This document shows positions 1,019-54,097 of a DNA stretch of 64,000 bases, in pieces. Positions within the stretch are counted from its first letter, which is position 1; each line of letters starts with the position of its first letter. A program made the translations under genes and the position numbers. Where the stretch lies: the NCBI GenBank assembly GCA_947561395.2, contig OX387183.1, forward strand, positions 10,591,402 through 10,655,401, written 5' to 3'. This DNA is from Buxus sempervirens (Eukaryota > Streptophyta > Magnoliopsida > Buxales > Buxaceae). The notes below the pieces were generated by a model, which was not told where the DNA came from, did no database searches, and saw nothing but the letters and a program-made list of their open reading frames with translations.

Positions 1019-1032
1019 GGCAAAAAAGTTGT

Positions 1033-19245: not shown

Positions 19246-19254
19246 CTATTTATA
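19246..19254 (-). promoter_or_regulatory. TATA box of the element 1 5' LTR
   Basis: The minus strand reads TATAAATAG. It is the expected promoter of the element's genomic RNA, with the palindrome array directly upstream (19269-19483). Confidence 0.75.
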
Positions 19255-19268
19255 GGCAAAAAAGTTGT

Positions 19269-19483
19269 GCCCGTTTTTAAAATACGGGCATGCCTTGCCC
19301 ATACTTCAAATGCGGGCATGCCTTGCCCGTACTTCAAATATGGGCGAAAAATGCACATTTGCAAATCTCGCAGATTCGGACGTACGGGACACGTATCCCA
19401 CCGTACAGTGACGCGCGTCCTCTTCTAGAAGCTTGCCCGTATTTGAAGTACGGGCAAGGCTTGCCCGTACTTCAAATACGGGC
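19269..19483. repeat. Array of five 21-bp palindromes in the 5' LTR of element 1
   Basis: Units lie at 19269, 19297, 19325, 19435 and 19463, each 21 bp with GCCCG and CGGGC ends; 19297 and 19325 have one altered half-site each. The last two units plus a 7-bp spacer form a 49-bp palindrome at 19435-19483, perfect except for the unpaired centre base. Confidence 0.85.
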
Positions 19484-32575: not shown

Positions 32576-32688
32576 TGTAGACACCCCAAATTGCACCTCG
32601 ATATAAGAAAATACTTAAAATGGGCTTTAAATGTCTTATTCGAGCATTTACATTTGTCAAAAACTCAAAAACTCTCAAAAGGGGTGCT

Positions 32689-32954
32689 AACCGTACTGAA
32701 TGAACGGTTTTTGTATTTTTGGTCTCAACCGCTCTGTATGTGCGGTTGCAACCGCACATACAGCACGGTTGATATCCATGCTTGTTGCATGAGCTGCCAC
32801 GTGGCTTCGCGAAGATTCGGCCGTTGAGCCACGTCGACAGCAATCATGACGAGCGTAACTGAATTGAACCGCCCTGTTGTGCGGTTTGGTTAAATTTGCA
32901 TGGGAACCATACTTATAATGACGGTTCTGTTGAAACCGTACTGTGTATGCGGTT
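32689..32954. repeat. Array of six 21-bp motifs AACCG-N11-CGGTT in the 5' LTR of element 2
   Basis: Units at 32689, 32727, 32750 and 32934 are exactly 21 bp with both half-sites intact. 32867 is 20 bp and 32905 is a 22-bp variant. Cores include TACTGAATGAA, CTCTGTATGTG and, inverted, CACATACAGCA. The array ends about 200 bp upstream of the TATA box. Confidence 0.88.
32796..32805. promoter_or_regulatory. G-box palindrome GCCACGTGGC in the 5' LTR
   Basis: A perfect 10-bp palindrome with the CACGTG core bound by plant bZIP/bHLH factors, lying inside the 21-bp motif array. The same sequence occurs in the 3' LTR. Confidence 0.5.
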
Positions 32955-33155
32955 TTGGCTGTTTCGAGGATTTGCGAAATGGCTCGATCTCTGAGCTTTA
33001 TTTACGCATATTACCTCTCTCTCAGGGACTTGAACTCCCTATTTCACCCTCCGAAACTTCTAGTATTACACCAATTCAAGCCTTGGAGGAGAATTGGAAT
33101 AATCTAAAAGGCTTTTTTGGCCTACCCTTGGGACTCTTCTACCCTTGGCTTGGCC

Positions 33156-33164
33156 TATAAATAG
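33156..33164 (+). promoter_or_regulatory. TATA box of the element 2 5' LTR
   Basis: TATAAATAG in a CG-richer context, about 580 bp into the LTR; identical box at 54089-54097 in the 3' LTR. Expected to drive the genomic RNA. Confidence 0.78.
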
Positions 33165-34983
33165 AGGGGTCCTCCTCTTGCAAATGGCTGATAATTTGAA
33201 GCTTGGAAGCTCTGCAAGAAGAGGGAAAAACTCTGCTGGATTGCTGCCTCAAGTATTCAAGCTACCAAAGGTAAAGCTCTAGTTGATTTCAGCATTTTCT
33301 TTACATTTCAACTCTCAACTTCTACCTTTCTGTAGCGTAAGGCCACTTTGTGTTGTTTTGTAGCCCCAAACCTCTTCCAAAGTACCTGGGAATTCTCTCT
33401 AGCCGTAAAACGTGAAGAGAGAGCCTTGGGAAAAAAAAGTAGGAATGGATCCTCTATACAAGTGATGAAGAGCATGCTATGTGGTTATTTTAAACCTATG
33501 GATGTTTATTTTCTGATGTTTTACACTTGCTCATGGAGAAATATGTGAATCCTTGCTCTCAGTAGCAAAGGATTTCATCCTTCTCCTAGGGAGTGGATTT
33601 TCACATATTCACACACTTTTCACCATTTTTTTATCAAATAAGCTAGATCTTGGATTTCCATGTTCAATACGGGAAATCTGAATCCATTGGCTTCAAAATG
33701 AATCTTAGAACTTCATGAGACGGTTTTTGTTGATTTTTAAGAGTTTTGGTCGAATTCACTTACACACATGCAATGATTTTGGTTTTTCTATTCAAAATCT
33801 TCAAAACAGGGCAGCACCTGTACCATGTCTTAGAATGCTCATAACTTCATCCTCCGGATGAATTTTTGAGTGATTCCAAAGACATGTGATAGATGACTTG
33901 GTCTATTTCATATCTGGAAAATTTCGTCCACTTCTATGTAGCCAATTTTTGACACCATCTGTTCAAAGTTTGTAAGTCAGTTCAGCCCAGATTGCTGAAC
34001 TTGCCGCTTTGATGGTGCACCGTTTGCTCAGTTTTAATCCGTTTTGAGTGATTCTAATTCCTGAGTGTTCCTTGAGAAGTCTATTTTCATTTCCAATTGG
34101 TTTCAACAGATTTTGATCTGTTTTGTGCCTTGGGTGCTCAGTTGACTCAGAGGTGCTCGCTGGCATAGTCCAGAGCTAATCTGTGGTCTTCTAGGCCTGT
34201 TCAAGAGAACACACAAGTCACATCCGGATAGAGTTTGGTGTGAGGTTTTTTTTTTTTGGAAATTTGACACCACATACTTCCTTCATACCAATTTTCATGG
34301 ATTTTTATTGAGCCAAACTCCACGAATAGGACTTTGAAAATGCCTACTCATTGCTTTTTCTGAGTTGTAACAGCAAATTTCAGATGTGGATTTCTCTCTT
34401 ATTTTGAATCGGATTGAGTTGAAATTTTTACTGTACACCCTACTATATACCAGTTTTCAAATGGCTTTGGTTTCATTGGATTTGGATTTAAATTGAGTGA
34501 GTTATGGTTAATCGAAGCTTTCAAGCTCTTTTGATCTAATTTCTCCAGATTTGTCTTAGCTTGATTTTCTTCATTTTTACTTTGACTTCACTTCACTCAT
34601 GAAGTTTTAGAAGTGATGAATCCACAAAGAGAGTCTAAGCTCATTAGACTTCTCATGTGGAATGGTCACACACATTGTGCTTGTTATAAGCACCTCTTTG
34701 TTCATTTTATTAGCAAACAATTTCTAGCATAAGCAAGCATGTGGCAACCGTATTAGACGGATGAGTGGGGGTGCCTAACACCTTCCCCCGCTCATAAATA
34801 ATTCCCCTTACCCAATCTCTGGATTTTTCCTTATCTTAGAGCTACTTTAGCTCTATTTGGTTTCTATGAACCCTTTGGTGTCCATTCACACCTTAAAATG
34901 GATGGTGGCGACTCATTACATTTATCGATCCCCGCGTGACGATATCGGAAGTCATCCGAGATGAAATTTCCATGTCTCACAAC

Positions 34984-35001
34984 TGGCGACTCTGCTGGGG
35001 A
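34984..35001 (+). other. Primer binding site of element 2 (tRNA-Arg type)
   Basis: TGGCGACTCTGCTGGGGA begins three bases after the 5' LTR and differs at two positions from the primer site of element 1. It complements a tRNA-Arg-like 3' end. Confidence 0.75.
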
Positions 35002-36596
35002 ACTAGTGGAATTGAGCCATGTTTTGATTGCTTGTGCGTGACTGATTGATTTTCATGAATTGTTTGCTGTTTTGCCCATTTGTGATAAGCATGTTTGAGC
35101 TGAGTGTTTTTGTTTTTAGAATACATGAGACCCATGAAAATAGGGCATGTGATGTGTGTATGCTTTGGTTATGCTCAAAACCATGTTAGTGGACCTAGAT
35201 AGTCTTACCATGCTAGGTTGCCATTTTTTTTTATGATAAGCATGCTTTGATTAGAACTTTAATGTGATGAGCATGAGATCAGAATTTTTGAGAGATGTTT
35301 ACTTTGTATCAAGCATGTTCACCATGATTTATTTGTTTTTTGGTATAACATGATAACATGCTTGCATGATGCTTGTGTGAATACATGTTTAATATGAGCA
35401 TGCTAGGTGTTTTTTTTAATTACTTTGTTCTACTCATGTTTGTTTACTTCAAATATGATTTCTATATCATGCCTTGGTGAATGTGATTGCGTTTGCATGA
35501 ATACTAAAAAAGAGTGGCAAGGGTGGGACGTTGTGTTGAATGTGACCCACTTTTTCAAATGCACTTGTGCACCTTTTTCTTTTTTTACACGGCCTACCTA
35601 TCACCTATAGGAAGTTGAACAAGAATGTGTGTAGCTTGGCGCACCGAGGTCGTTACTTCGGGAAGCGAAAGTGAAAACATTCACCTTAGAGGCTTTGAGC
35701 CAATGATGTGATGACATGATGGATCTAGAATTCTGGTCATACACTAGGCTTGAGCTCTAAGTTGCCAATAAGCCAAAACCCAAAACCCCTACGCGAAGGT
35801 GGAGAAGCACCCTTTTGGCCAAAATAAACCAAATGCGATGGGGAAAGGGCTTGTAATGAGGGAAGGCCGTCTTGCATGGCTCAAGTGACCCAAGGTATAA
35901 TATGGATACCATTTTGAAGATAAACATGAGGTAACAAGGTATTTTCAAGTTTTTCCCTTGTGATAATCTCCATACTTTGTAAGAATCAAGCTCATGGTGT
36001 CCATTTGTTCGGGATTTTGTTTTCCCAGAAACTTGCTTTTAGCCTAGGATTGGTGTAGCCCTTAGAGAGAGTTTTTACTCTTATTAGGTGTCATTCTACC
36101 CAAATGCCCATAGGAGGCACCCAAAAGTCCCCAAATTCCATGCATTAGGTGTCCATTTTTAGGAGGGAGCCTAGGCCCTCCTTTGTTTGAATATGGCTAA
36201 TCCTCTTTCTTGCAGGAAATTTGTGTGTTAAGGCCACCCAGGAGCTGCTGGTACAAAGGGTCTTTCCTTTTTCTTTTTAGTTTAGAAATTCTCATTCTCA
36301 AGCCCAAGGAGGCTAAAATTGTAATTTTATTTTGATTCATGCCCTTGAAGGCCAATTTGTATTGTAACATATTTCTTTTATTGTAAGAGATCTTTTTGTG
36401 CATATTCGTGGTCTCCCCATGCAACCTCATGAAATTCATGGTTTATGCGGGCTTTTAGCACCATTTGATGTGTCAAATGCCCAATTTGGGGCAGTCTGGA
36501 AGCCACCCAATGGTGAACAGTGTGTTTGGGCATTTAACCAAGCTAATAAAACCAATTGGAAGAGGAAACAAATCGAAAATCTGTGTTTTGGCTTAA

Positions 36597-36683
36597 AACC
36601 GTCCTGAGTATACGGTTGCCTGCATTTTCGCTGCAACCGCATGTATCATACGATTTGGGCCAAACCGTTCTGAATGTACGGTT
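36597..36683. repeat. Cluster of three 21-bp motifs in the element 2 leader
   Basis: Units at 36597-36617 and 36663-36683 are intact; 36635-36655 has CGATT in place of CGGTT. Cores are TCCTGAGTATA, CATGTATCATA and TTCTGAATGTA. Confidence 0.85.
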
Positions 36684-37422
36684 TTAAGCCAAAATCCTAT
36701 TCCAGCCTTGCTAATTAAACATTTCTGGGTCCTTTCATCCCTAAGTCATATAAGCAAGTGGGCAGGTGTGCTAAATAGGATAAATGGCATATAAACCTTT
36801 CCAAATGCACCCAAATCAAGAGATTAAGGTCATTTTGAACATATTCACCTAAATTGAACAAATTAACTCAACTCAAAGGTGAAAATGATAAAATAAAAAT
36901 TGGCTCAAACCAAAAAACAGATCAAGCACCTCAATTTGAGGGTTAAGTCCACATTAGGCTCTTTTTGTCCAATTTGACCACTTAACCCATCTTAAGTGAA
37001 GTAAATGATTAAAAGAGAATTGGTTCAAATAACCAACTTAATCACACTTCAATCTCAAGAATTGAACTTGGAAATCATAATAAGTTTCCAAAACATGCTA
37101 AGCTTAAGATGTAATACAATTTGTGAAAGAAAGCTCAACTCTTTTAAAATGGGGCAAATTCCAATCCAAAATCAACCTTTAAGAAATCTTCAATCATAAA
37201 GTGTCCAAGCTTTAAAATTTCCTTCCAAAGAGCAATTTGTGGGTCACTTGGAAACCTTTGAATTCCAAGCAAATAATCATTTAAAAATCCAATGAAAGAA
37301 AATCTCAAATAAATCACCACCTTAAAGGCAAATTGAGTCTCTTTATAACTCAAAACACCTAAGGGAGGAAATCAAAAATATTTTAGGCATCTGAAAGCCT
37401 TGGAATTTCAGAAAATCAAATC

Positions 37423-37670
37423 ATAGGACTCCTGGAAGCCTGAAATTCCAGAATTTTTCAAAATCTTCATAGGGCTTCTAAAGCCTGAATTTAGAAACTC
37501 ATAGGACTCCTGGAAGCCTGAAATTCCAGATCTTTTTCAAAATCTTCATAGGCCTTCTAAAGCCTGAATTTAGAAACTCATAGGACTCCTGGAAGCCTGA
37601 AATTACAGATCTTTTTCAAAATCTTCATAGGCCTTCTAAAGCCTGAATTTAGAAAATCATAGGCACTTGA
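37423..37670. repeat. Tandem repeat, about three copies of a 79-bp unit
   Basis: CATAGGACTCCTGGAAGCCT recurs at about 37423, 37501 and 37580, followed each time by AAAATCTTCATAGG and GCCTGAATTTAGAAA. Confidence 0.85.
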
Positions 37671-37699
37671 AAGCCTGCGTAATTTCAGGAGGTTGTGGA

Positions 37700-38110
37700 A
37701 GCCTTAATTCCAAAGCATAAGCCCTTGGAAGCTTGCGTAATTCCAAGTCTCGAGTTTGTCTAAGGATTTTTACTTTGGACATCTCATCTTTTGTGGGATA
37801 TGTTGGAAGCCCTAGAATTTTCCAATATTGGTTAGTCTTTTTCGTACCAACCAATGCATAAGCCTTGGAAGCTTGCGTAATTCCAAGTTGTGATTTGTCT
37901 AAAGACCTTTACCTTAGGCATCTCATATTGTGGGCCGTTGGAAGCCCTAGAATTTTCCAATATTGGTTAGTCTTTTTCATACCAACCAATGCATAAGCCC
38001 TTGGAAGCTTGTGTAATTCCAATGCTTGATTTGACTATAGGCTTTTACTATAGCCACATCATCTTTTGTGGGACATGTTGGAGGCCCTAGAATACTCCAA
38101 CAGAATTTCT
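37700..38110. repeat. Tandem repeat, about three copies of a 130-bp unit
   Basis: GCATAAGCC-CTTGGAAGCTTG recurs at about 37716, 37856 and 37990, each followed by TTGGAAGCCCTAGAATTTTC or a variant and a TTAGTCTTTTTCATACCAAC-like stretch. Confidence 0.8.
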
Positions 38111-38376
38111 ATGGTTTGATCTTTTTCATATCAATCACCTCATTTTAATAAGGTTATTTTAACCATAAATCCAAAAGGCAAAATATATATATATATGAAT
38201 ACAAGGAAAATCCCAAACTCATGTTCACCAAGCCTACATGCATGCATTCATAGGTGTGTAAAATTGATTTAATGGGGTACTAATATTTTTTCTTTGTCTT
38301 TTTCTTTTACCAAAGGTTTTCGGTTCCTACTGCAACCATTGCTCCCCGACGTTCTCAGAGACTAAAATCTGCCACC

Positions 38377-41322
38377 ATGAATCCTATTGAAGAACAGTCC
38401 ACTGTTTCTGCTGAGGCCTTTGCTCAATTACAAGAGCAAGTGGCAGGGATGACAAAACTACTAGAAAATCTGCTGGCCAACCAAGTCGCTCAGGCTCAGA
38501 TGCAGGCGCAGGCTCAGGTTCACCAGACTTCATCATCCCATAATGCACCACAGGCTCCACCCCAGACTGATCTTCCACCACCAGTCCAACCTATCCCACC
38601 TCAACCTGAACTTTACCAGCCAAACCCCGAGCCTATCCTGATCCGGGAGGAGGAATCTGAATATGAGAGGGAGAATGAGAAGGAAAAGGAGAGACTGAGG
38701 TTAGAAGTGGAGAGAAAATTCTTGGACAAGCTGGAGTCCATCCAAGAAGAATTGAAAGAAGTAAGAGGGATCAACACGTTGGGTGGTACCAATTTCAAGG
38801 ATCTTTGTATGTACCCCGACGCATGCCTACCGGCCAAATTTAAGTGCCCGGACTTCAAGAAATATGATGGCACCGGCTGCCCAATGAGCCATCTGAAGCT
38901 CTACTGTGGGGCGTTGTGCCAATTTGGCCGGGATGATGGCATCCTGATCCAGCTATTCCAGAGAAGCCTGACTGGAGCGGCTTTAAGGTGGTTCGCAACA
39001 GTAGACAACGGCAGAATCAGAAGGTGGAAGGACCTAGCTGATGCTTTCCTCGCTCAGTACCGTTTCAACGCCGACATCGTACTAGATAGGTACGATATGA
39101 TGAAGATGAGCAAAGGAAGAGATGAGACAGTCAGGCAGTATGCCAAAAGGTGGAGGGAAGCCGCCTCTCAGGTCAAGCCTCCCATGATGGAGCCAGAGAT
39201 GGTAACCACCTTTATTGGCACACTGGGGCAGCCATTTTACAATCACTTGGTGGGTCAGATTACCACCAGTTTTTCTGCCCTAGTACAAGTCGCAGACCGG
39301 ATTGAAGATGGAATCAGATCCGAGTGAATCTACGACCATTCTGCCGCGGTTCGTCAGCAGGAGCCCACTTCTGATCCTTCTGCCCAGAAACAAAAGAATG
39401 GGGCAAGGAGGAATGGAGGGAAGAAAGAAGGGGAAGTAAATATGGTACAACCCCAACCATCCAAAAAACCACTCCAAGTCAACATTTCTACACCACCATC
39501 CAGCCCAGTGCAGCTGCAATCGACCTATCAAAACCCTCTCAATATTAATGTTCCTCAGGCAGCAATGCCCAACCAAAAAAAGGTATTCTCGAAAGAGGAG
39601 AGAGACGCTTGGATGGCGTCCAGAAGGAATAGGGTCCTTTCCCCTCTTCCTGCGACTCCATCCCAGCTATTGCCAACTCTGTTAAACGCAGGGTATGTTA
39701 CCCTGAAAGAGCCAAATCCGAATGCTTCAAAGGGAAAGAATTTCGATTCCTCCACCACCTGTGAATACCATATGGGTGCACCAGGACACCCTACAGACAG
39801 GTGTTGGCCGTTAAAACATGCCATCCAGGATTTGATCAATCAGGGGACCTTGTTGTTTAACACGGCTGCACCCTCTCCCGCCACGACTGACATTGGTCAG
39901 AATCCTCTGCCCCAGCATAATGGGGCTGGTCCTTCCAATTTTGTAGGGACCGTCTCTTCTGGACCTAGGACGTTTGATCCCTCGCAGTTAATTGCACCCA
40001 TAGGGACGTCCGTTAAGGTCTATTTTGACCAAGAAGAGATAGGGGAACAAATCAATGTCATTTCCGGAAATAAAGGAAATGGCAAGACTGCGGAGGACAT
40101 TAATGCCTCTCTAAACCGGGCCGCTTCTCTCATGGCCCAGCTTAATGTAACTAAACCCCCTCTCATCATTAATTGCAACCAGGCTGTTGCTCCCCCACCT
40201 ACTCCATCATCCAAATCACCTTTGGTCATCAATTATGACCCCGCCACAGCATCAATTACCTCCGTTTCTTCTCAGACCTTGAAATCCTCTCAACCCAAGG
40301 AAACCAGGCAATCCTTGCCTCTGGTTATTGAGGTGCCTCCTTCCAACCCCACTCCCACATCAACTCCTGCACCAAGGTCTCATCTCCAGCCCTTTGTATT
40401 TAACGTTCTTAAACCCTCCTATTCAAAAACTGCTGTACCTTGGAACTACAGCGAGGGTTATACGACCACTATCCCAGTGGCCAGGAATCAGAGTCAGGAG
40501 GAAATAAATCTCATGACAAGATCAGGGAGATGTGTGGAAGGAAAAGAACAAGAAAAGAAAGAGGCAGAGCAAGTTCAGAAGGGGAAGGCCAAGATAGGGG
40601 AAGACACCCCCCAGGTCGTCAATGATGAGGCAGCGGACCTCTTAAAAATACTGAAAAAGAGTGAATTCAATATTGTCGACCAGTTAATTAAGGTCCCTAC
40701 CCAGATATCAATACTGGGATTGTTGCTTAATTCAGAAAAGCATAGGGACTCATTAATAAAGGTACTCCAGAGTGCTCATGTGCCTAAGAAGATTGAGCCA
40801 GACCAGCTCGGCATGATGATCGGCCAGATCTTATCTCACAATGTAATAAGCTTTTCAGAAAGCGAGATAAGCCCTGGCGGATGTTATCATGTGGCCCCTT
40901 TGCACATCACTGTGCTTTGTAAGGGTAACATGATAGCCCGAGTCCTAATTGATAATGGGTCAGCCTTAAACGTCTGTCCCTTAGTAACATTTGTTAGGCT
41001 TGGGCTGGATCAATCCAGAATAAAGCAGAATGGAAGGATAGTGAGAGCTTTTGATAGCTCCAAGACACACTCCCTAGGGGAGATTGAATTGCCGATTACC
41101 ATCGGACCGAATATCTTTAATATCACATTCGAAGTGATAGATATTCCTGCTGCCTTCAATCTACTTCTGGGAAGGCCGTGGATCCACTCAGCTAGGGCTA
41201 TACCATCCACCCTTCACCAAAGAGTAAAGTATATAAGGGGTCAGAGGGTGATAACTGTCCTAGCCAAGAGTCTAGTCCCTCCCTCATACCACCTGACGTA
41301 CCTTTTATTAATGTGGAATTAA
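38377..41322 (+). pseudogene. Element 2 gag-protease frame with one internal TGA
   Basis: ATG at 38377 in a good context (CCACCATGA). The N-terminal part has coiled-coil and Gln/Pro-rich segments; the capsid-like region includes LPAKFKCPDFKKYDGTGCP and VRQYAKRWREAASQ. A TGA at 39325-39327 interrupts it; the same frame continues from 39328 and stays open to 41322. Downstream are a Cys/His region (CEYHMGAPGHPTDRCW), a long Pro/Ser spacer, TRSGR and the aspartic protease (VLIDNGSALNVCP as active site, LLLGRPWIHSARAIP). A frameshift near 41270-41310 ends the frame early. Gag builds the particle and protease matures it; the damage is limited to one stop and one shift. Confidence 0.88.
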
Positions 41323-42104
41323 CGGCAAATAAAATTGCGTTTCATTCTTTTCAGTTTGAAACAGTCAACTTCATACCTGGGGGGTGTCTAAAAAAGAATG
41401 AGAAGTTGACATGCGCCAACAAGATGGTAGAAAAGGTTTTGAAAGATTGCAATTTCCACCCAGGAAAGGGTTGGGAATTAATCTACAAGGAAGAGTGGAG
41501 CCCATAGAGGCACAGAGGTTGGTCCCACGAGCAGGACTAGGGATGAAAATAAGAAGATGGAAGAGGGGACCACAGAAAGAAAATAGTAATGAAAGGGAAA
41601 AGAATCAAGGAAAATTCCCTCATTTAAGGGAAACTTTTCCGAAGCCCTCTCATACCATTCAATTGTCTCCTCCTACAGATTCCTCCAAACCCCCATATTT
41701 TAATGATAACCCTTTTAGAAAACCTTCTACCTCAACCCTTCAACCTTTTATCCCCCTTTCACCCATTGTGGCGCCTAAAGCCATGGATGAGCCTGAGCCA
41801 CTGCCACGAGAGCAGCAGGACTTCACAGAAGAGGCTGGGGCATTCTTTGCAATGACAGAGGATGAAGGAAGAGAGAAAACAGAAAAAAGGTTCCTTTTAT
41901 TGACTGGGCCTCAATCAAGATCCCAGATAAGGTCACCTCTGAACTCAACCCCGAAGCAGAAAAGGGCAGTTTTTCAAATCCGGTAATGATGGTATCGGAT
42001 CAAGAGCTAGAGGAGGAGCAGGTTTGCACTATACCACCTGCTCCAGAGGGCTTTGCATTAAAAAATTGGGAAGAGATCCCTTTGAAATTTGAGGCCGCAT
42101 ATGG
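41313..42104 (+). pseudogene. Protease-RT linker with G-patch-like segment, frameshifted
   Basis: Coding texture moves from one frame (41313-41490, with GGCLKKNEKLTCANKMVEKV) to another (about 41470-41986, with EPIEAQRLVPRAGLG, a glycine motif like that in element 1), then to the pol frame. The shifts fall near homopolymer-like GGGTTGGG and an A8 run (about 42126). Whether one shift is a spliced intron, as reported between protease and RT in Ogre elements, cannot be decided by eye. Confidence 0.65.
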
Positions 42105-43400
42105 TTGGCAATCAGCTGCGGCCTCCAAAAAAAAACTCTATTAGTGGATTGCCCTTTTCCTAAAGGTTTTAATGAACCTTCATCTTCAGGAAAAGCCTCT
42201 TTAGAAGGTTCTCAAAAAAGCCAAAAAGATTTTTCAACTTTTTCTAGAAAATCTAAAGCTTTCAAAATGGTCCAGACTGCTTATGAACCATATGTACAGA
42301 CTGAATTAGAGCAAGTTGAATATGATTTCAACCTCGAGCTCGACTTCGACCTAATGGGGATCGAAGAGGAGACCGAGGCCGAAGACGATGACCTTCCAAG
42401 AGAAATATCATATCAATTGGAACGTCACGAAAAGGGTATTCAACCTAATATTGAGGAAACCATTTCCATAAATCTGGGAACCAAAGAGGACCCAAAAATT
42501 GTAAAGATTGGTGCATGCTTGTCTGATATGCAGCAGAAGGAAATGTCCCAATTCTTAGCCGATTACAAGGACGTGTTCGCATGGTCTTATCGAGATATGC
42601 CAGGGTTGGTTACAGACATGGTTGTACACAGGCTGCCAATCCTGCCAAGAGTAAAGCCTATTAAGCAGAAATTGAGAAGGTTGAAGCCAGAGTGGACTTT
42701 AAAAGTCAAGGATGAAGTGGTAAAACAGTTTCAAGCCGGGTATTTGGCGGTTTCCACATACCCTGATTGGCTAGCTAATATAGTCCCGGTTCCAAAGAAG
42801 GATGGAAAAGTCAGGATGTGTGTAGATTACAGAGACTTGAACAAGGCGAGCCCGAAGGATGATTTTCCTTTGCCACACATCGACATTTTGGTTGATAACA
42901 CGGCAGTGCACAGCTTGTTCTCTTTTATGGATGGCTTTTCCGGATATAACCAAATCAAAATGGCAAAGGAAGATCAAGAGAAAACCGCTTTTATCACTCC
43001 TTGGGGAACCTTTCACTACACAGTCATGCCTTTTGGATTGAAGAATGCCGGGGCAACATATCAGCGAGCCATGACAGCCCTTTTCCATGACATGATCCAC
43101 AAAGAAATGGAGGTCTATGTAGATGATATGATCGCCAAATCGTGTGAAGAGGAAGACCACTTGATCAATCTAAAGAGGGTATTTGACCGTCTAAGGAAAT
43201 ACAGCTTAAGGCTTAATCCAATAAAGTGTGTTTTTGGAGCCACATCAGGGACATTATTGGGATTCATTGTAAGCAGAAGAGGGATTGAGATAGACCCGTC
43301 TAAAGCAAAAGCAATCATTGAGATGCCACCTCCTAAGACTGAAAAAGAAGTTAGGGGTTTTCTGGGAAGAATTCAGTATATTAGCCGGTTCATAGCATAG
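42105..43400 (+). pseudogene. Element 2 reverse transcriptase, ended by a TAG
   Basis: The RT domain runs from the acidic linker through DVFAWSYRDMPGL, CVDYRDLNKASPKDDFPLP, MDGFSGYNQIKM, MPFGLKNAGATYQRAM and the catalytic YVDDMIAKS to FLGRIQYISRF. It converts the element's RNA to DNA. TAG at 43398-43400 stops it before the RNase H. The downstream sequence continues in the same frame, and the base change is consistent with C to T at a Gln codon. All other RT motifs are intact. TTG or internal ATG starts are irrelevant because the product would be a polyprotein. Confidence 0.92.
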
Positions 43401-44738
43401 CTCACTGCTATTTGCGAGCCGATCTTTAAGCTTCTAAGGAAGAATAACCCAACTATATGGAATGAGGATTGCCAACAAGCATTCGACAAAATAAAGGATT
43501 ATCTGTTAAATCCACCTGTTCTAGTACCACCAACTCCAGGAAAACCATTGATTCTGTATCTATCAGTTTTAGAAACATCAATGGGATGTGTATTGGGGCA
43601 GCATGATGAAACACGCAGAAAAGAAAAGGCTATCTACTATTTGAGCAATAAGTTCACAGATTATGAGACGAGATATTCGCCTTTGGAAAAGACTTGTTGC
43701 GCTTTGGTCTGGGCAACTCAGAGGCTTAGGCACTATTTCTTAAGCTATTCAACTTTGCTGATTTCAAGGATGGATCCGTTAAAATATCTGTTTGAAAAGC
43801 CGGCTTTAACTGGTAGAACAGCGAAATGGCAGCTTTTGCTTTCGGAATTCGACCTGACATATGTCACTCAGAAAGCAATCAAAGGTCAAGCAATTGCTGA
43901 TCATCTAGCTGAGCATCCATTACCAGATTATCAGCCTCTTAAGACAAATTTCCCTGATGAGGCTATCTTATTTGCTGAAGAGGAAGAAAGTGAAGACTCC
44001 TGGCAGATGTTCTTTGACGGGGCTACAAATATGAATGGAAATGGAATTGGTGCAGTATTAGTGAAGCCAGATGGTTCACATATCCCAATCGCAGTGAAAT
44101 TGAGGTTTCAGTGCACGAACAACATAGCAGAGTATGAAGCATGTATAATCGGATTGCAAGCTGCTCTAGATCATGATGTGCAAGAACTTGACGTATATAA
44201 GGATTCGAGTCTTATCATCTTCCAAACAACTGGTGAATGGAAAACCAAAGATCATAAATTGATCCCATATCACCAATATTTGGAAGAAATAAGTACCAAA
44301 TTTACTCGAATTTCTTTTAGCTATATGCCAAGATCTAAGAATCAGTTTGCGGATGCCTTGACGACATTGGCTTCAATGGTTAGTATTCCAGAAGGGGTAG
44401 ACATACAACCACTCGAAATTGAAGTCAGAGACGAGCCAGCTTACTGTCTTGTTTTAGAAGGAGCGCAAGAAGTAGAAATACCATGGTTTCAAGATATCAA
44501 GAATTTCCTGAATAATCGAGGTTTTCCAGAAAGCGCTAATCCTACTGAAAAAAGAACGATACAGAGGTTATCGGGGCAGTTCCTCCTAAGTGGTGGGCAA
44601 TTATACAAGAGATCTTACAGTAATGTTCTACTTAGATGCGTCACCAAGGTTGAAGCAGAAAGGTTGATTGAAACAGTGCACGGAGGAGTTTGTGGGCCGC
44701 ATATGAATGGACACATGCTCACAAGGAAAATACTGTGA
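43401..44738 (+). pseudogene. Element 2 dual RNase H region and integrase zinc-binding start, ended by TGA
   Basis: In frame with RT. The gypsy-type RNase H has CVLGQHDETRRKEKAIYYLS and YSPLEKTCCALVW. The second, plant/archaeal-type RNase H follows with WQMFFDGA, AEYEA, KDSSL and NQFADAL, keeping four acidic residues, whereas element 1 lost the first. The start of the integrase zinc-binding region (HGGVCGPHM) precedes TGA at 44736-44738, where element 1 has an Arg codon. Two RNase H domains in one pol place this element in the Tat clade. Confidence 0.92.
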
Positions 44739-45731
44739 TTGGGATATTATTGGTCTACAATGGAGCACGATTGTTGCCTACATGTTAAGAGATGCCATTT
44801 GTGCCAAATATACGCTGATAATAAGCATGCACCACCAAGTGAACTGCACAGCATGACCTCGCCATGGCCTTTCTCTATGTGGGGTATTGATGTCATTGGG
44901 ATGATTTCTCCAAAAGCGTCTAATGGACACCGGTTCATCCTAGTGGCGATCGATTATTTCACGAAATGGGTTGAAGCTGCTTCATATGCAAATATTACAG
45001 GAAACCATGTTCTTAAATTTCTGAAGCACAACATAATTTGTCGCTATGGGTTGCCGAAAGCCGTAGTTTCAGACAATGCTTCAAATATTAAGAACAAGGA
45101 TATGAAGAAGATGTGTGAGCAGTTTCAGATAACTCATCATAATTCAACCCCTTACAGGCCAAAGATGAATGGAGCAGTAGAGGCGGCGAATAAGAATATA
45201 AAGAAAATAATCCAGAAGATGGTAGTGAGCTATAGAGATTGGCACGAGATGTTACCATTTGCTCTCCAAGCTTACAAAACCTCAATCCGAACTTCTACTG
45301 GGGCAAGGCCGTATTCCTTGGTTTATGGAACGGAGGCAGTCTTACCTGTTGAAGTAGAAATCCCTTCATTGAGAGTGCTTATGGAAACAGAACTCGAAGA
45401 AGCTGAATGGGTTCAGTCTAGATATGAGCAACTCAATTTGATAGAAGAAAAGTGTTTGAATGCGCTTTGCCACGGTCAACTGTATCAGAAGAGAATGGCC
45501 AGAGCCTACAATAAGAAGGTGAAGCCCAGAACATTCCAAGTGGGTAATTTAGTTTTAAAGAAGATATTGCCATTTCTGGAAGACCCTCGCGGAAAGTTTA
45601 AGTCAAATTGGGAAGGACCTTATGTAGTGAAGAAGGTCCTGTCAGGAGGCGCTCTCATCTTGGCAGAAATGGATGGGACAGATTTTCCTGAGCCAATCAA
45701 CTCCGATGCAGTCAAGCATTATTTCCCTTGA
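44739..45731 (+). pseudogene. Element 2 integrase, catalytic core and C-terminal domain
   Basis: Continues the pol frame after the TGA. CHLCQIYAD completes the zinc site. The catalytic D, D, E are in WGIDVIG, VVSDNASN and NGAVEAANK. The C-terminal domain has GKFKSNWEGPYVV and ends AVKHYFP. The core is complete and uninterrupted, but it is cut off from the rest of pol by the upstream stop codon. It would insert the DNA copy into the genome. Confidence 0.92.
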
Positions 45732-46250
45732 AGGAATATCACAAAGAAATGATCCGAGGCCATTTTTTTCTTTATCCCTCAAAAATTTTAACATCCCTAG
45801 ATTAAACCAAGTTGAGCCTGTTTGTGTTTTAAAGAACCCAAACTGGAGCTTACAGTTGCAACTGGGGCAAAGTTAATAGAAAAAAAAAAAGAAGGGAAAA
45901 TAGCAAAGAAAGGCCAAGTACAAAGAAGAAAAAAAAAGGGGGCCAATATTGGGAATGGGGAGTCACATCCATTATAACTGTAAGCCCAGTTGTCCCATTT
46001 CAAGATGTCAAAATTTTGAGCCTATAATAACTTTCTTTCATAAACTCAACCCATCCTTCATTTCATCCTATTGGTCAAGTCCTCGGTGATCGGGGTGTAT
46101 TCCTTCAGCTCGCGGTGTTGAAAGGGTAATGACAGAATAAATGAGCCGGCCCTAGTGAAAACCGTAACAAGCACTAGGGGCAATATTGGCAAAGAAAAGG
46201 CAAAAGAAAAACGAATAAAAGAAAAGAAAGAAACAAGAAAAAAGGTCACC

Positions 46251-46366
46251 AACCGCACTTGGGGTGCAGATTGAACCAAACCGCCCTTTAACTACGGTTT
46301 TGGCCAGAGGGCTATGCAACCGCATGTTGGAGACGGTTTCGGCCAAACCGTTCTGAATGCACGGTT
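46251..46366. repeat. Cluster of four 21-bp motifs between pol and the antisense genes
   Basis: Intact units at 46279, 46318 and 46346; a degenerate 22-bp one at 46251. Cores are CCCTTTAACTA, CATGTTGGAGA and TTCTGAATGCA. Confidence 0.83.
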
Positions 46367-46784
46367 TTGGGCAGCAGAATTGAGTTGAGCCAATTTTCCA
46401 CACAGGACTGAACCAGTAGGCTGTGGCATGCCCCCTAGAGGTGGGAATGAAACTTGGGGACGAGTCTAAAGGTTCCAAGGGGGACGGAATGGCTTCCTCC
46501 TCATTAACTAAAATACCCTTTTTGCCCAACTTACTTCAATTCATCCAACTATATGGGATTAAAGCATTATGGACCAATTTAAAACAAAAACACACAAAAA
46601 TGAAAATTATATTTTGGCCGATGATGAGGAATCAGTGACTTTTCATTAAAACTGTCAGTTTTTACAAGCATATGAGAGTTCTAAGGCCAATAGTATAAAA
46701 ACCTATTTTGTATTCTTTATCTTTCCACTAGTGGAGTTTCTCTTTGTACAAAAGTGTAAAAAAGAAAAAATACAATAAAAGGGG

Positions 46785-48437
46785 CTAATCTCTATCCCCT
46801 AGCCTTTCCTCAAGCTCTCTGATCCGAGCCGCCTGAACCGCAACAAGCCTTTCAGCCCCCTCTGCATCTGGGTCACTGAGGAATGAGATGACGTCGTCTG
46901 AGAGGGTCTTTCTGGTCCTCATATCTCTGAGCTTGGCCATGGTCTCATCATGCCTACGCCATGCGGCTCTAACCTCGAAGCGACGGGCCTGTATCTGCTC
47001 TAATAGCCGTCTCTCCAGATCTCCCTTCTCCAATCTCAAGGTTCGGGCCTCCTCCACCCATATATGCTGAAGCCGTCTATGAGAAGCCCGCTCAGTCTCC
47101 AAAAGGTCCTCATAGGTAGGACACGGGATAGCAGGAGGATCTATCGGTATAGAAGCGCAGCTCTGCACCTGCTCTCTAATCCAAAAGAGGTAGTCCTTCT
47201 CATGCAATTTGGAGAAGACAGGACCTCTCAAGAAGCAAGCCTGCGACCAATCCTTCACCAGACGGAAGCATAGCCCCATGGTGGCCGGTGTGAGCGGACC
47301 TATGAACTCTTCGTGCCCCTGAGGTACCAGAATCCCTTGCACCTCCTCTTCGAACTGCCGGATGACTCTCAAAGGCAAGTAGAGCAAGGCAGACCTCAAG
47401 CCTATGAGCACGGCAAAATTCCGATCAAGGAAGCTGATCACTGTCTCAGTGGAAGGCTGATAAGCACCAAGCCATCTCACCTGGTCATCCTGAAGCGTCC
47501 CCAAGAAAGTGAACCATCCCTGTTTGCCACCGTGGATGTTGGGACACCCCCTGTTGCTCATCAAAACAGGAATGTTTAATCGAGGGAAGAAGCGGCGGGT
47601 AATCTCTTCAACTTGACTCAGGTGGTCAAGTAGCCAGAGCTGCAAAGAAAAGGGAAGCATTTCTAACTTAGAAAATCTCAATTTTGCAATAAAAACTGTA
47701 ATTCAAGAAAGAAGTTCAGATTTTACCTGAAGTATAGGGGCGCAGGCGAGGAAACTTTTCTGCTTCCGATGATAGCAGTCAGTCAAGGCCTGGTATATTT
47801 CAGCCAGGATCATAGGGGCAAGCCTTTCGCGCTCCCTAACTTGGCAAATGACTGAAATGAGGGATAAATCAACCTCGCTATCACCTCGGGGGAATAAAAG
47901 TTGATTGACCACTATCAAGGTCAAAGCATTGAACCGAGCCGACTGGTTTGAGCTATTCAACAGCTTTTCAGTCAAAAATGACTTTGATAGGGTCAATAAG
48001 GCGTCAGCTTCCCCTAGCTCTTTCTTGCTAATTCCTAAAAAGGTGGAGGCTTCCTTTTTGAAGCTTGGTTTGAGAGGTGGGTTGACTACTTTCTTGGAGA
48101 ACCTAAGGTTGAGGATGGTTTCAACCTCCTCGACTGTAGGGGTCATCTCTTTTTCCCCAAACCTAAAGAGGTTCAATTGGGGTTCCCAATGCCCAATCAA
48201 TGCCTCTATGATTTCCCATTTTAGGGGAACCTTTGGGATTGAGAGAAGGTGGCCTAGATTGGTGGAATCCCAATCTATCTCATCTTGTGGGGTCATTGAA
48301 TCAACCCACCTCTCATAGTAAGTATCTACAATGGCATACCTAGTCAAATTGGGAGGTTTGGACCTAATTTTTGGCTTAGGTGCTAATGTTTCAGGTACAG
48401 AAGATGAAGAGGGCACAGAAGCTGAATCAGAAGCCAT
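46785..48437 (-). CDS. Element 2 antisense gene A: spliced homologue of ORF1, 521 aa
   Basis: Two exons, 48437-47727 (237 codons, ATG start) and 47639-46785 (284 codons plus stop). They are separated by an 87-bp phase-0 intron with GTAAAA and TTTGCAG borders. The protein contains KWEIIEALIGHWEPQLNLF, FGEKEMTPTVEEVETIL and VNQLLFPRGDSEVDL. The splice joins CAPILQ to LWLLDHL, exactly matching the continuous CAPLLHIWLQDHL of ORF1 in element 1. The C-terminal 150 residues are charged and helical. It lies tail-to-tail with pol, on the opposite strand. The four 21-bp motifs and an ACGT box (48511-48685) lie upstream of its start. Function unknown; ORF1/plant-mobile-domain-like affiliation is inferred. 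Confidence 0.82.
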
Positions 48438-48510
48438 TAATGGGCAGAAATGGATTAAAGGCAGCTAGGAGAGAGAAAATCACCGAAAATGGGGTTTCTG
48501 ACCTAAGCAA

Positions 48511-48527
48511 TACGTCAAAATGACGTC
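48511..48527. promoter_or_regulatory. Paired TGACG/ACGT box upstream of antisense gene A
   Basis: TACGTCAAAATGACGTC contains two inverted TGACG-type cores, as in plant bZIP (as-1-like) sites, about 75-90 bp from the ATG of gene A. Role inferred. Confidence 0.4.
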
Positions 48528-48567
48528 CTGCCCGCAATTCGCGACTTTAAAATAACCTAAGGGCAAA

Positions 48568-48685
48568 AACCGCATACACAGAACGGTTATGCCTGAACCA
48601 AACTCAATGTGCGGTTGCATTCTCACAAAGTTTAAAAACCGCGGAACAAGCACGGTTCTCGCATAACCGCCATGTATATACGGTT
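48568..48685. repeat. Cluster of four 21-bp motifs upstream of antisense gene A
   Basis: Units at 48568, 48637 and 48665 are intact; 48596 has AACCA. The core of 48568 (CATACACAGAA) is identical to that at 53067 and is the reverse orientation of the LTR cores. Confidence 0.85.
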
Positions 48686-48944
48686 TTTGCACAAAAATAG
48701 TTTTTCTTCTTTCTTTTAATAAGTCATGTTCCCAAAAATTACCTGTTACCTGTATAACATTGCAACATGATAAACATAAAACAAAAGAACAAAAAATTAA
48801 AAGAAAAGAAACAAAAATGAATAAATCATCTCCTTTCATATAAATGCAAATAGGATACATCATGTCATATATACATCAAATAAATCCTAATCTAAAACTA
48901 TCTCCTACAGGTCAATCCCCCTCGCCTCTACCTCGCCATCGCTG

Positions 48945-51689
48945 TCAGATGAAGAAATGATCTGAGAAGCGTTGGCTAGGAGGAGAGGACGGCTCATCAA
49001 CAGTCGAAAGACCAGCAGGAGGCACTGGGTCTACAGAAGGCGCCGGCTCAACTGTAACTGAATCATCCCGGGAAAGGTCCATGAAGCAGGAGACTGAAGT
49101 ATCCATCGCCAAAGGGACCAGCTCCAGAATCCGGGAATCCTCAACAGGAGGAGATGAATCGATGGGATCCGCTGCCTCACACGCCTCTGCCACCTCGGGC
49201 TCAGCTACATCTTGCATACCCTCCTCTCTCACGGGCTCAGCCGCCTCGGGAACCGAAGGAACATCTGAGTCACCCTCCGCTGCCTCAGGAACGGTCTCCG
49301 GCTCAGGTACAGGAGCAGTCTCTGGCAGGGGTACAACCGCTGGCATCTCAGCTGACTCAGGAACTGCAGCGGCAGAAGTAGCCTCGGCCGCCACCTCAGT
49401 CTCTCTCTCTCTGGGATCTCTGCAGCTCCTAAGGAAAAGGATAGGGTACGAGAACTGGATGGTGAAGCTGCCACATCCTCCTGGAAGACAAAGACAGATT
49501 GATCAGAAGCAGAAAATATAAAGAAAAAAATACAGAAATTGGAAAAGACAGACCTGAGCTCCTGAAGGCCCCGCATGGCCCTGAGCACTGGCCAACTGGG
49601 CCCGCAAGTCGGCAATAAGAGCGACCTGCCCAGTGATGATGACGTCGCTCTCAGCTATGGCAGCGTCCCTCTCAGCCAGCTGGCGCTCCAAATCCGCATA
49701 TCTAGCCCGGACCTCCCCTAGCTGTGCCTCCTGAAATGAGATAAGAAGAAAAAAGATATCAATAAACTTCAAACAAAGGAAGAAGACTAAAGGACTGCAC
49801 AAGGAAAGGAGATTTGTTGTACCGTAGTGTCATACAAGCGGACCACCACCCCTCTGATCTCAGTAACTCTACCTCGAACGGGCATGGGCTGCATAAGACA
49901 ACCCACTGAGACCTGCCCGAACCAAGTATCATAGTCACCATCAACTAAAAGGGCATCTCCTGCCTCCCAATCACCAAAATGGGCAGGGTCGAATGGACCA
50001 GGAGGGGTGAAGGGTGCTGTATCTGGAAGAGCCACTGGGATCCGGAGCTCGCCAGTATGCTGGAAGAAGAAGCGCTCGCCGAGGTACCATATGCTACCCA
50101 ACTGCCCGATGAAGAATGGGTACCTCTGGCGCCGCTGATCCAAAGCAAAAGCGTCATCCACGAAAGGCTGAAAAGCCAACTCATCGTGCAGGCCATCGAG
50201 ACGGGGAACAGACAGCTGAGGATAAACAGAGGAGAATGTCAGATTCTGGAAAAAAGGAGAAAAGGAAAAGAGAGAGAGAAAAGAAGAAAGTGCTTACCTC
50301 TCTCTTGAAGGTCCTATCCAGGTGAGCCCTGGCCGACCTAGGGCGACTCTTCTCTGAGTCGCGCCTAATCCGACTCCACCGACGGGCCAAGGGGAATGTC
50401 CCCTCAGGCAATGTGGAGGTAGGGCGAAAGTGGGCCACGTAGACCCGAGCAAAGAACTGAAAGAAAAAAAAAAGAGAGAGATAAGCAAAGAAAAAAGGGA
50501 AGAAAAAAAAAAAGAGAAGAGAGAAGAAGAAGAAAAAGAAAAGAAAGAAAGAAAATAATTTATACCTACAAAAAGGGCCAGAAGAACCTGCAACCCACTC
50601 CAGCCCCTCTGGGAGACGATAGGCCAGAAACCACTCGTCGTAGGCCCGCTAGCAAGGTGCCGTAGACAAGCTGGCCCCAAGCATATTCCCTCACTCGGTG
50701 CAGATCTTGGAGAAGGCTCAGGAAATGGGGACTGACCGAGGTAGTATCCTCCAAGCAGAAGCATGATCCCATCATCAGAAGGAAAAGAAATCGAAAGGCC
50801 ACGGGAAAACTGGGATGCTCCGCTGCTAAGGTGCTGTATCCCCTCTGCAGAAATGTCTCCCTCAACCGTGTCCATGAAATACGGGTAATCCTGCTCCTGT
50901 CCCAAGCTGCCACGGGCATCTCATCATATCCCAAGAGTTCGGCGATCTCCAAATCCGCCGGCCGATCCATCTCAGTGATGACATCTCCAGTCATCCTGAT
51001 CCCAGTAATGAGAGCGAAGTCGGAGGGGCGAATACCAATCTCCACATCAGGCAGATGAAAGCTCAGGGTCTCTGGAAAAAAACGCTCCATCAGGGCCAGG
51101 ATCAAAGGCCAATCCTGGTGAACGCCGGTAATGGTGATGAAGGGGCCAAATCCAAAACAGCCCATCTCTCGACGCAAAGGAGTCAAACAGGTAGCTACTA
51201 CATCGGCAAAAAGGGCCCAGCTCCCGCGGAAATGGGAAGATGGATAAGCAAGAGGAATGTCTGCCCTGACGCCCACCGAAGGATGCGTCCTCAAATCATG
51301 GAGGAGAGAGGTATCTCGGATCTGATCCGCTATCTCCGCAGGAATGGCAACACGAGTCACCCGGGCTCCTGCCCTATCCCTATGACGAGCTCCCCTGCGA
51401 CCTCGGACCTCGGCAACAGGCTAGAAAAGCAAATGAGATGGATTCAGGTTGAATGTGGTAAAAGAGAGGTCTGGTTTTTGAAAAGAAGAGAGAATATCTC
51501 GGGTATCGACTCCTGCGAACCCCCAAATGCTCTAGAGTCTAAATCTGAAAGCTCCAGACTGTTGGGAGAAGAAGGATCAGGGTCCGGCTCGGCCCTAGAA
51601 GAAGATGCCACATCGGCCGGATCCCTCCGAACCCTCGAAGATGAAGGCTCATCTGCGGGACCCCGAGAAGCACGACGTGTACGAGCCAT
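48945..51689 (-). pseudogene. Element 2 antisense gene B: multi-exon plant mobile domain (PMD) protein, apparently frameshifted
   Basis: Exons read on the minus strand: about 51689-51500 (MARTRR..., Ser/Pro/acidic; donor unresolved), 51420-50566, 50456-50298, 50215-49823, 49730-49554 and 49480 to about 48945. Introns 2-5 have GT..AG borders and are 109, 82, 92 and 73 bp; the last three are all phase 0. Exon 2 carries PMD hallmarks: FFPETLSFHLPDVEIGIRPS, FPVAFRFLFLLMMG and VREYAWGQLVYGTLLAGL. Exon 4 has LDGLHDELAFQPF, as in PMD tails. Exon 5 is a coiled coil and exon 6 an acidic Pro-Glu-rich tail. Two frame changes are visible: one in exon 2 after LLAGL, one at a CT microsatellite (about 49402-49414). 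PMD occurs in MAIL1-type host proteins and in transposons. Confidence 0.75.
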
Positions 51690-53066
51690 CTACAAGGCCA
51701 ATTGCAGGGAGAAATTTATTATGTTTTATTGGAAGTCATTTTATTCACTTTCAGTTAATTTTTCTTCAGACTAATCAATTCTACTTGGTTTACAGGAAAA
51801 AAGAAATCAGAAGAGACACTGCAGGAAGTGCCTAGCCGAACCAAGACTTGATTTCCTTTTCTGTACTTCCTTATTATTTTTATTATGTATAAGAATTATA
51901 TATAAGAAACAAAATCTCCTATATATCCTTCTTATAAACAAAAAGGAAAAAAGAGAAAATTTTTATTTTTTTAAGCAAGCTATTCAGAATTTTCAATTCA
52001 TTTTAGAATTTTGATAAACCTATAAATTGCCTAAAGTCCTAAACTGTTAAATGTGTTCTACCTTGCAGGTTTACAGAAGGAAGGTAGTAAAAGGGATAGT
52101 CAAAGCCGAGTTCAAGCCAACTGGGAGTGTCAAGCTAGGTTCAATCCTGTTCATCCTAATAGGGTGTCAGCACTAATTGGGTCCAAGAGCAATCCATACC
52201 AGACATCCAAGTGTTCAGATCAAATTGAATATTGATAGAGCAAAACCAATGAAACCTTGGCAATAAGTCAGAACATGTACAGAAAATAGCCAGTATTCAG
52301 AAGCATGGTATGACTGAGCACACCAAATGCTCAAGTGACCAGAAAAGTAAGAGCAAATGCATTCGGACATGCATCAAGGCATGATTCCAACAGGAGCAAT
52401 AGGACAATGTCATCAAAATCAATATGGCAAATCAAGGCACCACACTAAATGAAATCAAGTGTGCGTCCATACATTAGCTCGAGGTTCATGTTCTCGGATA
52501 AAAGTGTTGCAAAAAAAATGATCAAGATATGAGCAAGTTCGAAATCTAAAGTGCATTTCAATCAATAACAGGAGATCAAATTCCTACATGAACCAGGATC
52601 ATTTACTCAGTGATTCAAGATGTTAGAGCTCGGATTGATTGCTTGCCAGAAAAATAAGTGTTTGGCCGCCTACCTGAAGTAGCTGAAATCGAAGTTCTGC
52701 AAAGAAAATGGAGTCTTGACCTCACCGGAGCTCCAGAAGAGACTGGCTGGATGATTGGCGAACTCAGAAATTCCTCGATCGATGAGGAGGCTGGGGCTGA
52801 GTGGTGGTAAGATGGCAAGAGGTCGCCGGAATCCACCAACACAAGAGGTTGTTGATCACTTCTCAAAACAGAAGTTGCCGGGGAGAGCAGAGTTCACCGG
52901 GAAGAGATGATGTTGCCGGAGGAGGTGTCGTCATCGGAGGAGAAGGGAAGAAAACCGGAGGAAAACCACGGTCGCCGGAGAAGAGAAACAAGATTGGAGT
53001 TCGAGGGTTTTTGCGAGCAAAGTGAAGCCAGCCGCGGTCGCGATCTCGGTTATATGCAACCTAGAA
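51690..53066. other. Element 2 region upstream of antisense gene B, no gene seen
   Basis: AT-rich leader-like sequence to about 52600, then a GC-richer stretch at 52700-53040 with several CCGG sites (GCCGGAG, CACCGGGAAG). Short ORFs lack domains. By position it could be the promoter and leader of antisense gene B. Confidence 0.5.
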
Positions 53067-53165
53067 AACCGCATACACAGAACGGTTGGTATTAAAATCG
53101 TCTCAAACCGCACATACAGAACGGTTGAAATAGAAATTGCTAAAAACCGCATGTTCAGTACGGTT
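53067..53165. repeat. Cluster of three intact 21-bp motifs before the 3' LTR
   Basis: Units at 53067, 53106 and 53145 have cores CATACACAGAA, CACATACAGAA and CATGTTCAGTA, all in the orientation opposite to most LTR copies. Confidence 0.87.
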
Positions 53166-53491
53166 GGCACCCAAAAATGAATCTTCAAAACTTTTTCCAA
53201 TCTCTTTCAAAAGATCTATGTCCAGGATAGTGTTGAATTGCAAGAAGCACCACCCTATCAACTTTTGCTTTAAAAATTTGCTCAAATCTCACTTCATAGC
53301 CACGAGTGCTTTGTGAGACGCGAGAAGAGGATTTGCCCCTTAAAGTTAGGGACTTTTCATCAGATCCTCTAAACAAATTCTTTTTCAAAAATCATGTTGG
53401 AGTTCTTGCAGCTCATAATTGAATGGACATGATTTTGGGAGGCGCAATTTGTGGGTCTTTTGCTCTCTGCTGTCAATTGATTCCAATTCCA

Positions 53492-53503
53492 GCGAAGAGG
53501 GGG
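53492..53503 (+). other. Polypurine tract of element 2
   Basis: GCGAAGAGGGGG lies four bases before the 3' LTR. Confidence 0.8.
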
Positions 53504-53620
53504 TAGTTGTAGACACCCCAAATTGCACCTCGATATAAGAGAATACTTAAAATGGGCTTTAAATGTCTTATTCGAGCATTGACATTTGTCAAAAACTCAA
53601 AAACTCTCAAAAGTGGTGCT

Positions 53621-53887
53621 AACCGTACTGAATGAACGGTTTTTGTATTTTTGGTCTCAACCGCTCTGTATGTACGGTTGCAACCGCACACACAGCACGG
53701 TTGATATCCATGCTTGTTGTGTGAGCTGCCACGTGGCTTCGCGAAGCTTCGGCAGTTGAGCCACGTCGACAACAATCATGACAAGCATAACTGAATTGAA
53801 CCGCCCTGTATGTGCAGTTCGGTTAAATTTGCATGAGAACCATACTTATAATGATGGTTCTGTTGAAACCGTACTGTGTATGTGGTT
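53621..53887. repeat. Array of six 21-bp motifs in the 3' LTR of element 2
   Basis: Units at 53621, 53659 and 53682 are intact; three further units have one altered half-site (CAGTT, TGGTT), mostly G/A or C/T changes relative to the 5' LTR. Confidence 0.83.
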
Positions 53888-54088
53888 TTGGCTGTTTCGA
53901 GGATTTACGAAATGACTCGATCTTTGAGCCTTATTTACGCATATTACCTCTCTCTCAGGGACTTGAACTCCCTATTTCACCTTCCGAAACTTCTAGTATT
54001 ACACCAATTCAAGCCTTAGAGGAGAATTGGAATAATCTAGAAGGCTTTTTTGGCCTACCCTTGGGACTCTTCTACCCTTGGCCTGGCC

Positions 54089-54097
54089 TATAAATAG
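54089..54097 (+). promoter_or_regulatory. TATA box of the element 2 3' LTR
   Basis: TATAAATAG, identical to the box at 33156-33164. Confidence 0.7.

Follow-up and report, generated by a model that had tools for sequence, protein, structure and literature searches.

The window, a stretch of 64,000 nucleotides from Buxus sempervirens (assembly GCA_947561395.2, contig OX387183.1, positions 10,591,402 to 10,655,401 of the forward strand), contains two long terminal repeat (LTR) retrotransposons, element 2 on the + strand and the related element 1 on the - strand. Both carry repeated copies of a 21-bp dyad, in which inverted five-base arms flank an 11-bp spacer (N11), and these dyads are the subject of this report. 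Pfam matches in both elements occur in the order reverse transcriptase (RT), RNase H, additional RNase H, and integrase, and each element has an extra open reading frame (ORF) with a PMD, as is typical of Ogre elements. The additional RNase H is described as a Tat feature, and PMD genes are reported in 57% of surveyed Ogre elements (PMC6317226). Based on domain order and the PMD ORF, elements 1 and 2 are assigned to the Tat/Ogre-type Ty3-gypsy retrotransposons. The LTRs of element 2 are ~2.4 kb long.

32576..55924, + strand: element 2, Tat/Ogre-type retrotransposon, 23,349 bp, with LTRs and target-site duplication
32571-32575 and 55925-55929: target-site duplication GATTG bordering element 2
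32576..34981, + strand: element 2 5' LTR, 97.5% identity to the 3' LTR
53508..55924, + strand: element 2 3' LTR
38284..45731, + strand: element 2 gag, RT, two RNase H-type domains, and integrase, in several frames
46785..48464, - strand: gene A of element 2, DUF7745/PMD, antisense (frames 47703-48464 and 46785-47702, with a stop between)
48945..51689, - strand: gene B of element 2, antisense (PMD in frame 50566-51420; remaining frames are candidate exons)
about 17630..20043, - strand: element 1 5' LTR, with the primer-binding site just inside (17626)
14845..16260, - strand: element 1 DUF7745/PMD gene, 471 aa, on the strand shared with element 1 pol

Dyads in elements 1 and 2 and across the genome

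An earlier sequence-only reading of this DNA had claimed 18 exact copies of AACCG-N11-CGGTT; all 18 were found, all inside element 2 and in the clusters that it named, whereas 200 shuffled sequences yielded none.

32689..32954: 5' LTR dyads; exact at 32689, 32727, 32750, and 32934, with a shortened copy at 32867
36597..36683: leader array; exact at 36597 and 36663, one mismatch at 36635
46251..46366: array after pol; exact at 46279, 46318, and 46346, two mismatches at 46251
48568..48685: array upstream of gene A; exact at 48568, 48637, and 48665, one mismatch at 48596
53067..53165: array before the 3' LTR; exact at 53067, 53106, and 53145, 1.4 kb upstream of gene B
53621..53887: 3' LTR dyads; exact at 53621, 53659, and 53682, one mismatch at 53799 and 53867

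We compared all 5-mers with at least two G/C at spacings 0-40, taking the best word from each of 30 dinucleotide shuffles as the reference. AACCG at spacing 11 was by far the commonest word, with 15 copies (one LTR counted) versus a maximum of 3 in shuffled sequence, in agreement with the claim that the enrichment is not due to chance. Sites with one mismatch numbered five in element 2 (mean of 200 shuffles, 0.23), as did those with two (mean, 3.9). The previous count of about eight variants was slightly generous because ~7 mismatched sites look credible by position. None of the 18 exact sites falls on ORF spans, which make up 50% of element 2, so the claim that no copy is coding holds for these; however, two-mismatch sites at 44087 and 48100 do overlap ORF spans. 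A proposed core consensus fared similarly: 9 of 10 occurrences of CTGWATG in element 2 lie within a dyad, whereas none of the 7 in the rest of the window does; however, the core differs from dyad to dyad, and in relatives it is no better conserved than the flanks. A dyad with a CTGAG(T) core occurs once per array in many arrays (36597 in element 2, and loci L049-L054, L012, L015, and L025); such dyads are common to families with different outer bases and may mark a special array member.

The genome (676.5 Mb) contains 19,195 exact AACCG-N11-CGGTT dyads, compared to 1,691 matches when the pattern is reversed. Absence of the motif from the corresponding positions in relatives, the outcome that was to count against it, was not what we observed, as relatives' LTRs and DUF7745 loci carry dyads. 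Ten LTR relatives were aligned to the element 2 3' LTR, with 71-89% identity over their matches; an eleventh fetched locus, L030, matches the gene A promoter instead of the LTR. In these 10 relatives, mismatches affected 44 of 495 half-site bases (8.9%), or 42 of 395 (10.6%) when each locus's best dyad was left out, compared to 126 of 544 bases in the spacer core (23.2%) and 925 of 4015 in the flanks (23.0%). At CpG bases, mismatches numbered 9 of 160 in half-sites and 86 of 266 in flanks. With best dyads left out, Fisher's test gave p = 1.5e-9, a value that is only nominal because the loci are related and were found through at least one exact dyad.

The outer bases vary on this 21-bp geometry: element 1 has GCCCG, a third family found by blind sampling has ATCCG, and GACCG occurs elsewhere. 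Element 1 has eight copies of GCCCG-N11-CGGGC (0.018 expected).

18159..19483: element 1 5' LTR dyads GCCCG-N11-CGGGC; exact at 18356, 19269, 19435, and 19463
18159, 18384, 18412, 18440, 19297, and 19325: variants of the element 1 5' LTR dyads
119..1247: element 1 3' LTR dyads; exact at 1033, 1061, 1199, and 1227, variants at 119, 147, 175, and 1089

Within the element 1 family, both arms can differ together: the site at 18356 reads GCCCG/CGGGC, and L015 has GACCG/CGGTC at the matching lattice place, a correspondence that relies on L012, through an 82-bp alignment of its flank and a comparison of L012 with L015.

In the blind sample (14 stretches of 10 kb, 140 kb in all), the most enriched dyad was ATCCG-N11-CGGAT, with 10 copies versus 0.03 expected, in L025 and L026. 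At N11, the blind stretches contained 11 perfect-arm NNCCG...CGGNN dyads and the window 26, whereas no other spacing between 4 and 21 gave more than 2 and 3, respectively; the maximum for the control NNGCC...GGCNN was 6. The conserved part of the motif is CCG-N11-CGG, and the AA/TT ends are only the element 2 family's version. A GTCGC palindrome in L023, which recurs at 110-bp steps, was rejected as a dyad candidate and attributed to a tandem repeat. A MiAMP1-type frame lies near the ATCCG dyads of L026 (7274-7669).

A further element of this type, in L025, has its gene B and gene A on the strand opposite pol; an array of four sites ends ~20 bp before the stop-to-stop frame of gene A. A close relative in L057-L058 (95% DNA identity in pol) has four-site arrays in its LTR and in its leader, and the sites at 992-1051 of L025 seem to match the LTR array of this relative in L057. 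No array matching the 53067-53165 cluster of element 2 was seen in L025.

Sites within arrays are mostly spaced 27-29 or 38-41 bp apart. Among pooled stretches (LTR pairs and dyad-chosen loci included, overlapping L014 excluded), all 63 neighbor spacings below 49 bp were 23, 28, 38, or 39 bp (7, 24, 10, and 22 cases, respectively), and stretches chosen by DUF7745 added spacings of 27, 29, and 41 bp. At 28-bp spacing, the array becomes CCG-N11-CGG-N11-CCG; the second mode exceeds this by about one helical turn, and 23 bp fits neither mode. For 16 loci fetched for one AACCG dyad, a neighbor, allowing one mismatch in CCG/CGG, was present at 28, 39, or 56 bp in 15; the exception was L047, whose nearest neighbor dyad is 90 bp away. 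Six of these 16 loci (L049-L054) combine one AACCGG and three ATCCGG dyads in 39-bp steps, one site having a mismatch.

DUF7745/PMD genes beside the arrays

The element 1 gene, the N-terminal frame of element 2 gene A, and L025 gene A scored over the curated cut-offs of both PF10536 and PF24924, and gene B of element 2 and of L025 scored over that of PF10536; the C-terminal frame of element 2 gene A was below cut-off (15.6 of 26 bits). Between elements 1 and 2, the two halves of gene A have 35% and 29% identity. In element 1, which has arrays and gene A, TBLASTN queries taken from gene B of element 2 and of L025 identified no gene B. Comparison of element 2 with L025 shows that gene A and gene B both diverge faster than pol, with identities of 89% for pol, 57-77% for gene A, and 45-51% for gene B; gene B (48945-51689; L025:2349-4275) is the fastest-changing of the compared genes. 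Protein searches returned 2 and 13 proteins, mostly Nicotiana DUF7745 proteins, and a search with gene B found none. No PDB relative of the element 1 DUF7745/PMD protein was found.

To sample loci independently of the dyad, we searched the genome for PF24924, scored 118 of 5,750 candidates, and took every sixth row, for a total of 20. Gene A frames that are intact occur in the genome. The upstream regions were fixed before their letters were seen, at 150-950 bp for 12 element-2-type loci and 1.8-3.6 kb for eight element-1-type loci. These 24.0 kb contained 67 perfect-arm N11 dyads, versus 11 in the 140 kb of blind sequence, and 17 of the 20 stretches had at least one; another, L073, had two dyads, each with a single unmatched outer base. 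At the remaining spacings between 5 and 19, counts were 0-5, and the reversed control gave up to 6. An array occurs upstream of gene A in both architectures, within the LTR when gene A comes after it and at an internal promoter when gene A is antisense, which is the pattern expected of an autoregulated factor. In element 2, the array is 131-248 bp upstream of gene A's first Met.

A tree was built from 24 gene A pieces, comprising the 20 sampled loci, elements 1 and 2, L025, and L023. The dominant outer dinucleotide required five changes on this tree, compared to a mean of 10.6 after shuffling, and none of 200 shuffles was as low; the outer bases thus follow the clade of the neighboring DUF7745 gene A. 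Within the element-2 lineage, the outer bases were AA in eight rows, GC in four, and AT in one; within the element-1 lineage, they were GC in seven rows and AA in one, with three unlabelled. AA and GC are therefore present in both deep lineages.

Candidate binding protein and alternatives

That the dyads are sites of a dimeric, sequence-specific DNA-binding protein is well supported at the sequence level by the strict dyad, the matched arms, the half-site constraint, and the regular spacing. The sequence-only reading had likewise suggested a dimeric site, and by sequence this part stands, although only CCG-N11-CGG of its motif is conserved. The link with DUF7745/PMD genes narrows the choice of candidate binder, short of proof, and the pattern of outer bases suggests a separate control protein for each family, with docking sites to match. 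We estimate a probability of about 0.5 for the full explanation, in which the dimeric protein is made by the element and exerts family-specific control.

The binder would most likely be the product of gene A, possibly joined by that of gene B in elements that have it. Adjacent dimers would line up along the array and would activate the LTR and antisense promoters, or hold them free of silencing, and gene A would thereby also regulate itself. Families may change their outer bases along with the protein, which would largely confine the action of each to members of its own family, as with VANC proteins in VANDAL DNA transposons. We advance more tentatively, with the odds somewhat against it, a joint proposal in which a DUF7745/PMD protein made by Ogre/Tat elements binds own-family dyads in the LTR, leader, and gene promoter and counters silencing, the outer dinucleotide being a changeable address with switches between AA and GC in at least two lineages. 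The model of the element 1 protein, although otherwise poor, includes a long, confidently predicted C-terminal helix, a feature compatible with dimerization.

In Arabidopsis VANDAL (Mutator-like) elements, VANC proteins have defined target motifs, and binding and demethylation have been demonstrated (PMC5735166, PMC10398659). As described there, VANDAL elements resemble the present ones in having a short motif that is repeated in non-coding parts and differs between related families, as well as a fast-changing element gene. VANDAL elements are DNA transposons, whereas those analyzed here are LTR retrotransposons with DUF7745/PMD genes, a 21-bp N11 dyad, and a helical array, all known from sequence alone; they are therefore not members of the VANC/VANDAL system, and the likeness is only possible. 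Retand elements carry antisense TRP28 genes and family-specific tandem repeats between pol and the 3' LTR; they too are Tat-type elements whose antisense genes have been suggested to bind DNA and regulate, but TRP28 has another protein domain, and the accessible parts of that report mention no dyad (PMC11963269). The Ogre PMD genes share lineage and domain with those of elements 1 and 2, and no cis-site is described for them in the corresponding parts of the survey (PMC6317226). Among the listed open-licence PMC papers on Ogre elements, LTR motifs, and anti-silencing in LTR retrotransposons, no title or abstract opening describes such dyads.

Several observations weigh against the favored explanation. 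Two of the 20 DUF7745 stretches (L059 and L068) contained no dyad with any outer base pair matched, and for L068 the region read was wrong because its protein matched element 1 best. The N-terminal half of gene A has no residue that tracks AA/GC alike in both lineages, and a single LTR can mix GC, GA, and AA, so the outer bases are not strictly one per element. Near-copies inflate the clustering on the gene A tree, and of its 20 inner branches, 4 are starred and 10 are open. Both AlphaFold models are too poor overall (mean pLDDT of 46.5 and 37.8) to support a fold search or to show a DNA-binding fold. Finally, anti-silencing rather than plain activation would be argued from the likeness to VANC alone.

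The main rival, which we consider rather unlikely, is that the elements captured the dyads as enhancers, recognized by transcription factors of the host, to drive LTR and antisense transcription. Host-factor motifs are ordinary in LTRs, and the LTRs of Tnt1 and Tto1 contain enhancer repeats bound by host factors, which the dyads resemble as short motifs repeated in an LTR. The MYB-type core C-N-G-T-T fits CGGTT, and the arrays are located within LTRs and ahead of gene A. However, GCCCG and ATCCG do not fit the MYB core, and the different outer bases at the same N11 geometry make one host factor of fixed taste insufficient. We know of no description of Tnt1/Tto1-type repeats as arrays outside the LTR with family-specific dyad ends. 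In addition, the arrays accompany DUF7745 genes, whereas the few blind stretches with copia-type (L019, L028), RVT_1 (L018), or zf-RVT (L018, L019) genes had no perfect-arm dyad, L019 having one dyad with one outer base matched.

It is improbable that the arrays are instead sites by which the host finds and represses the elements. Dyad CpGs in LTR pairs decay by transitions, like methylated CpGs, and the host PMD proteins MAIN and MAIL1 silence transposons, but half-sites that were solely repressive would not be favored by selection on the element, and here they are kept, as is the geometry, although families diverge in outer bases. Host PMD proteins are reported to help silence transposons, with their action at DNA or chromatin contact left open, and MAIN/MAIL1-dependent genes share an unexplained "DOWN" promoter motif, CATGCAGTTT in MORC1 (PMC7156037, PMC9899485). 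In that motif, CATGCAG is one base from the element 2 core read backwards (CATWCAG), a short match that may be chance and serves only as a lead; unlike the elements, the motif as given there has no CCG-N11-CGG dyad.

RNA hairpins acting in packaging, export, or translation are very doubtful. The five-base arms are complementary, and joint arm changes would also keep a stem, but one position further inward, 11 of the 18 dyads in element 2 lack even a wobble pair, and at the position after that 15 of 18 do; spacing modes about one DNA turn apart together with arrays upstream of antisense gene A suit DNA better. Equally remote are functionless neutral repeats arising by slippage, duplication, or gene conversion, since half-sites are constrained while spacers drift like flanks and the array keeps its place and geometry before gene A across families with different outer bases, even if some clusters are copies of each other (36632-36685 and 46315-46368, 87%).

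If the joint proposal is correct, PMD proteins would have a DNA target and a VANC-like system would exist in retrotransposons. The defined dyad and its matched natural variants are ready probes, with which sequence-specific self-recognition in retrotransposons, as evolved by VANDAL elements, becomes testable.

Other observations

A pattern scan of viral contigs matched 11 stretches once each, and these matches were taken as chance; protein scans of viral contigs and of a genome-contig collection found no relative. Element 2 contains two tandem repeats before gag (37421-38100, units of 79 and 135 bp) and a G-patch domain match between gag and RT (41402-41986), and element 1 has an internal 46/88-bp tandem repeat (13500-13811). 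A frame encoding a 1050-residue leucine-rich-repeat protein (25365-28517) lies between the two elements. Positions 57892-59242 and 62569-63964 form a direct repeat ~4.7 kb apart, 87-95% identical in pieces.

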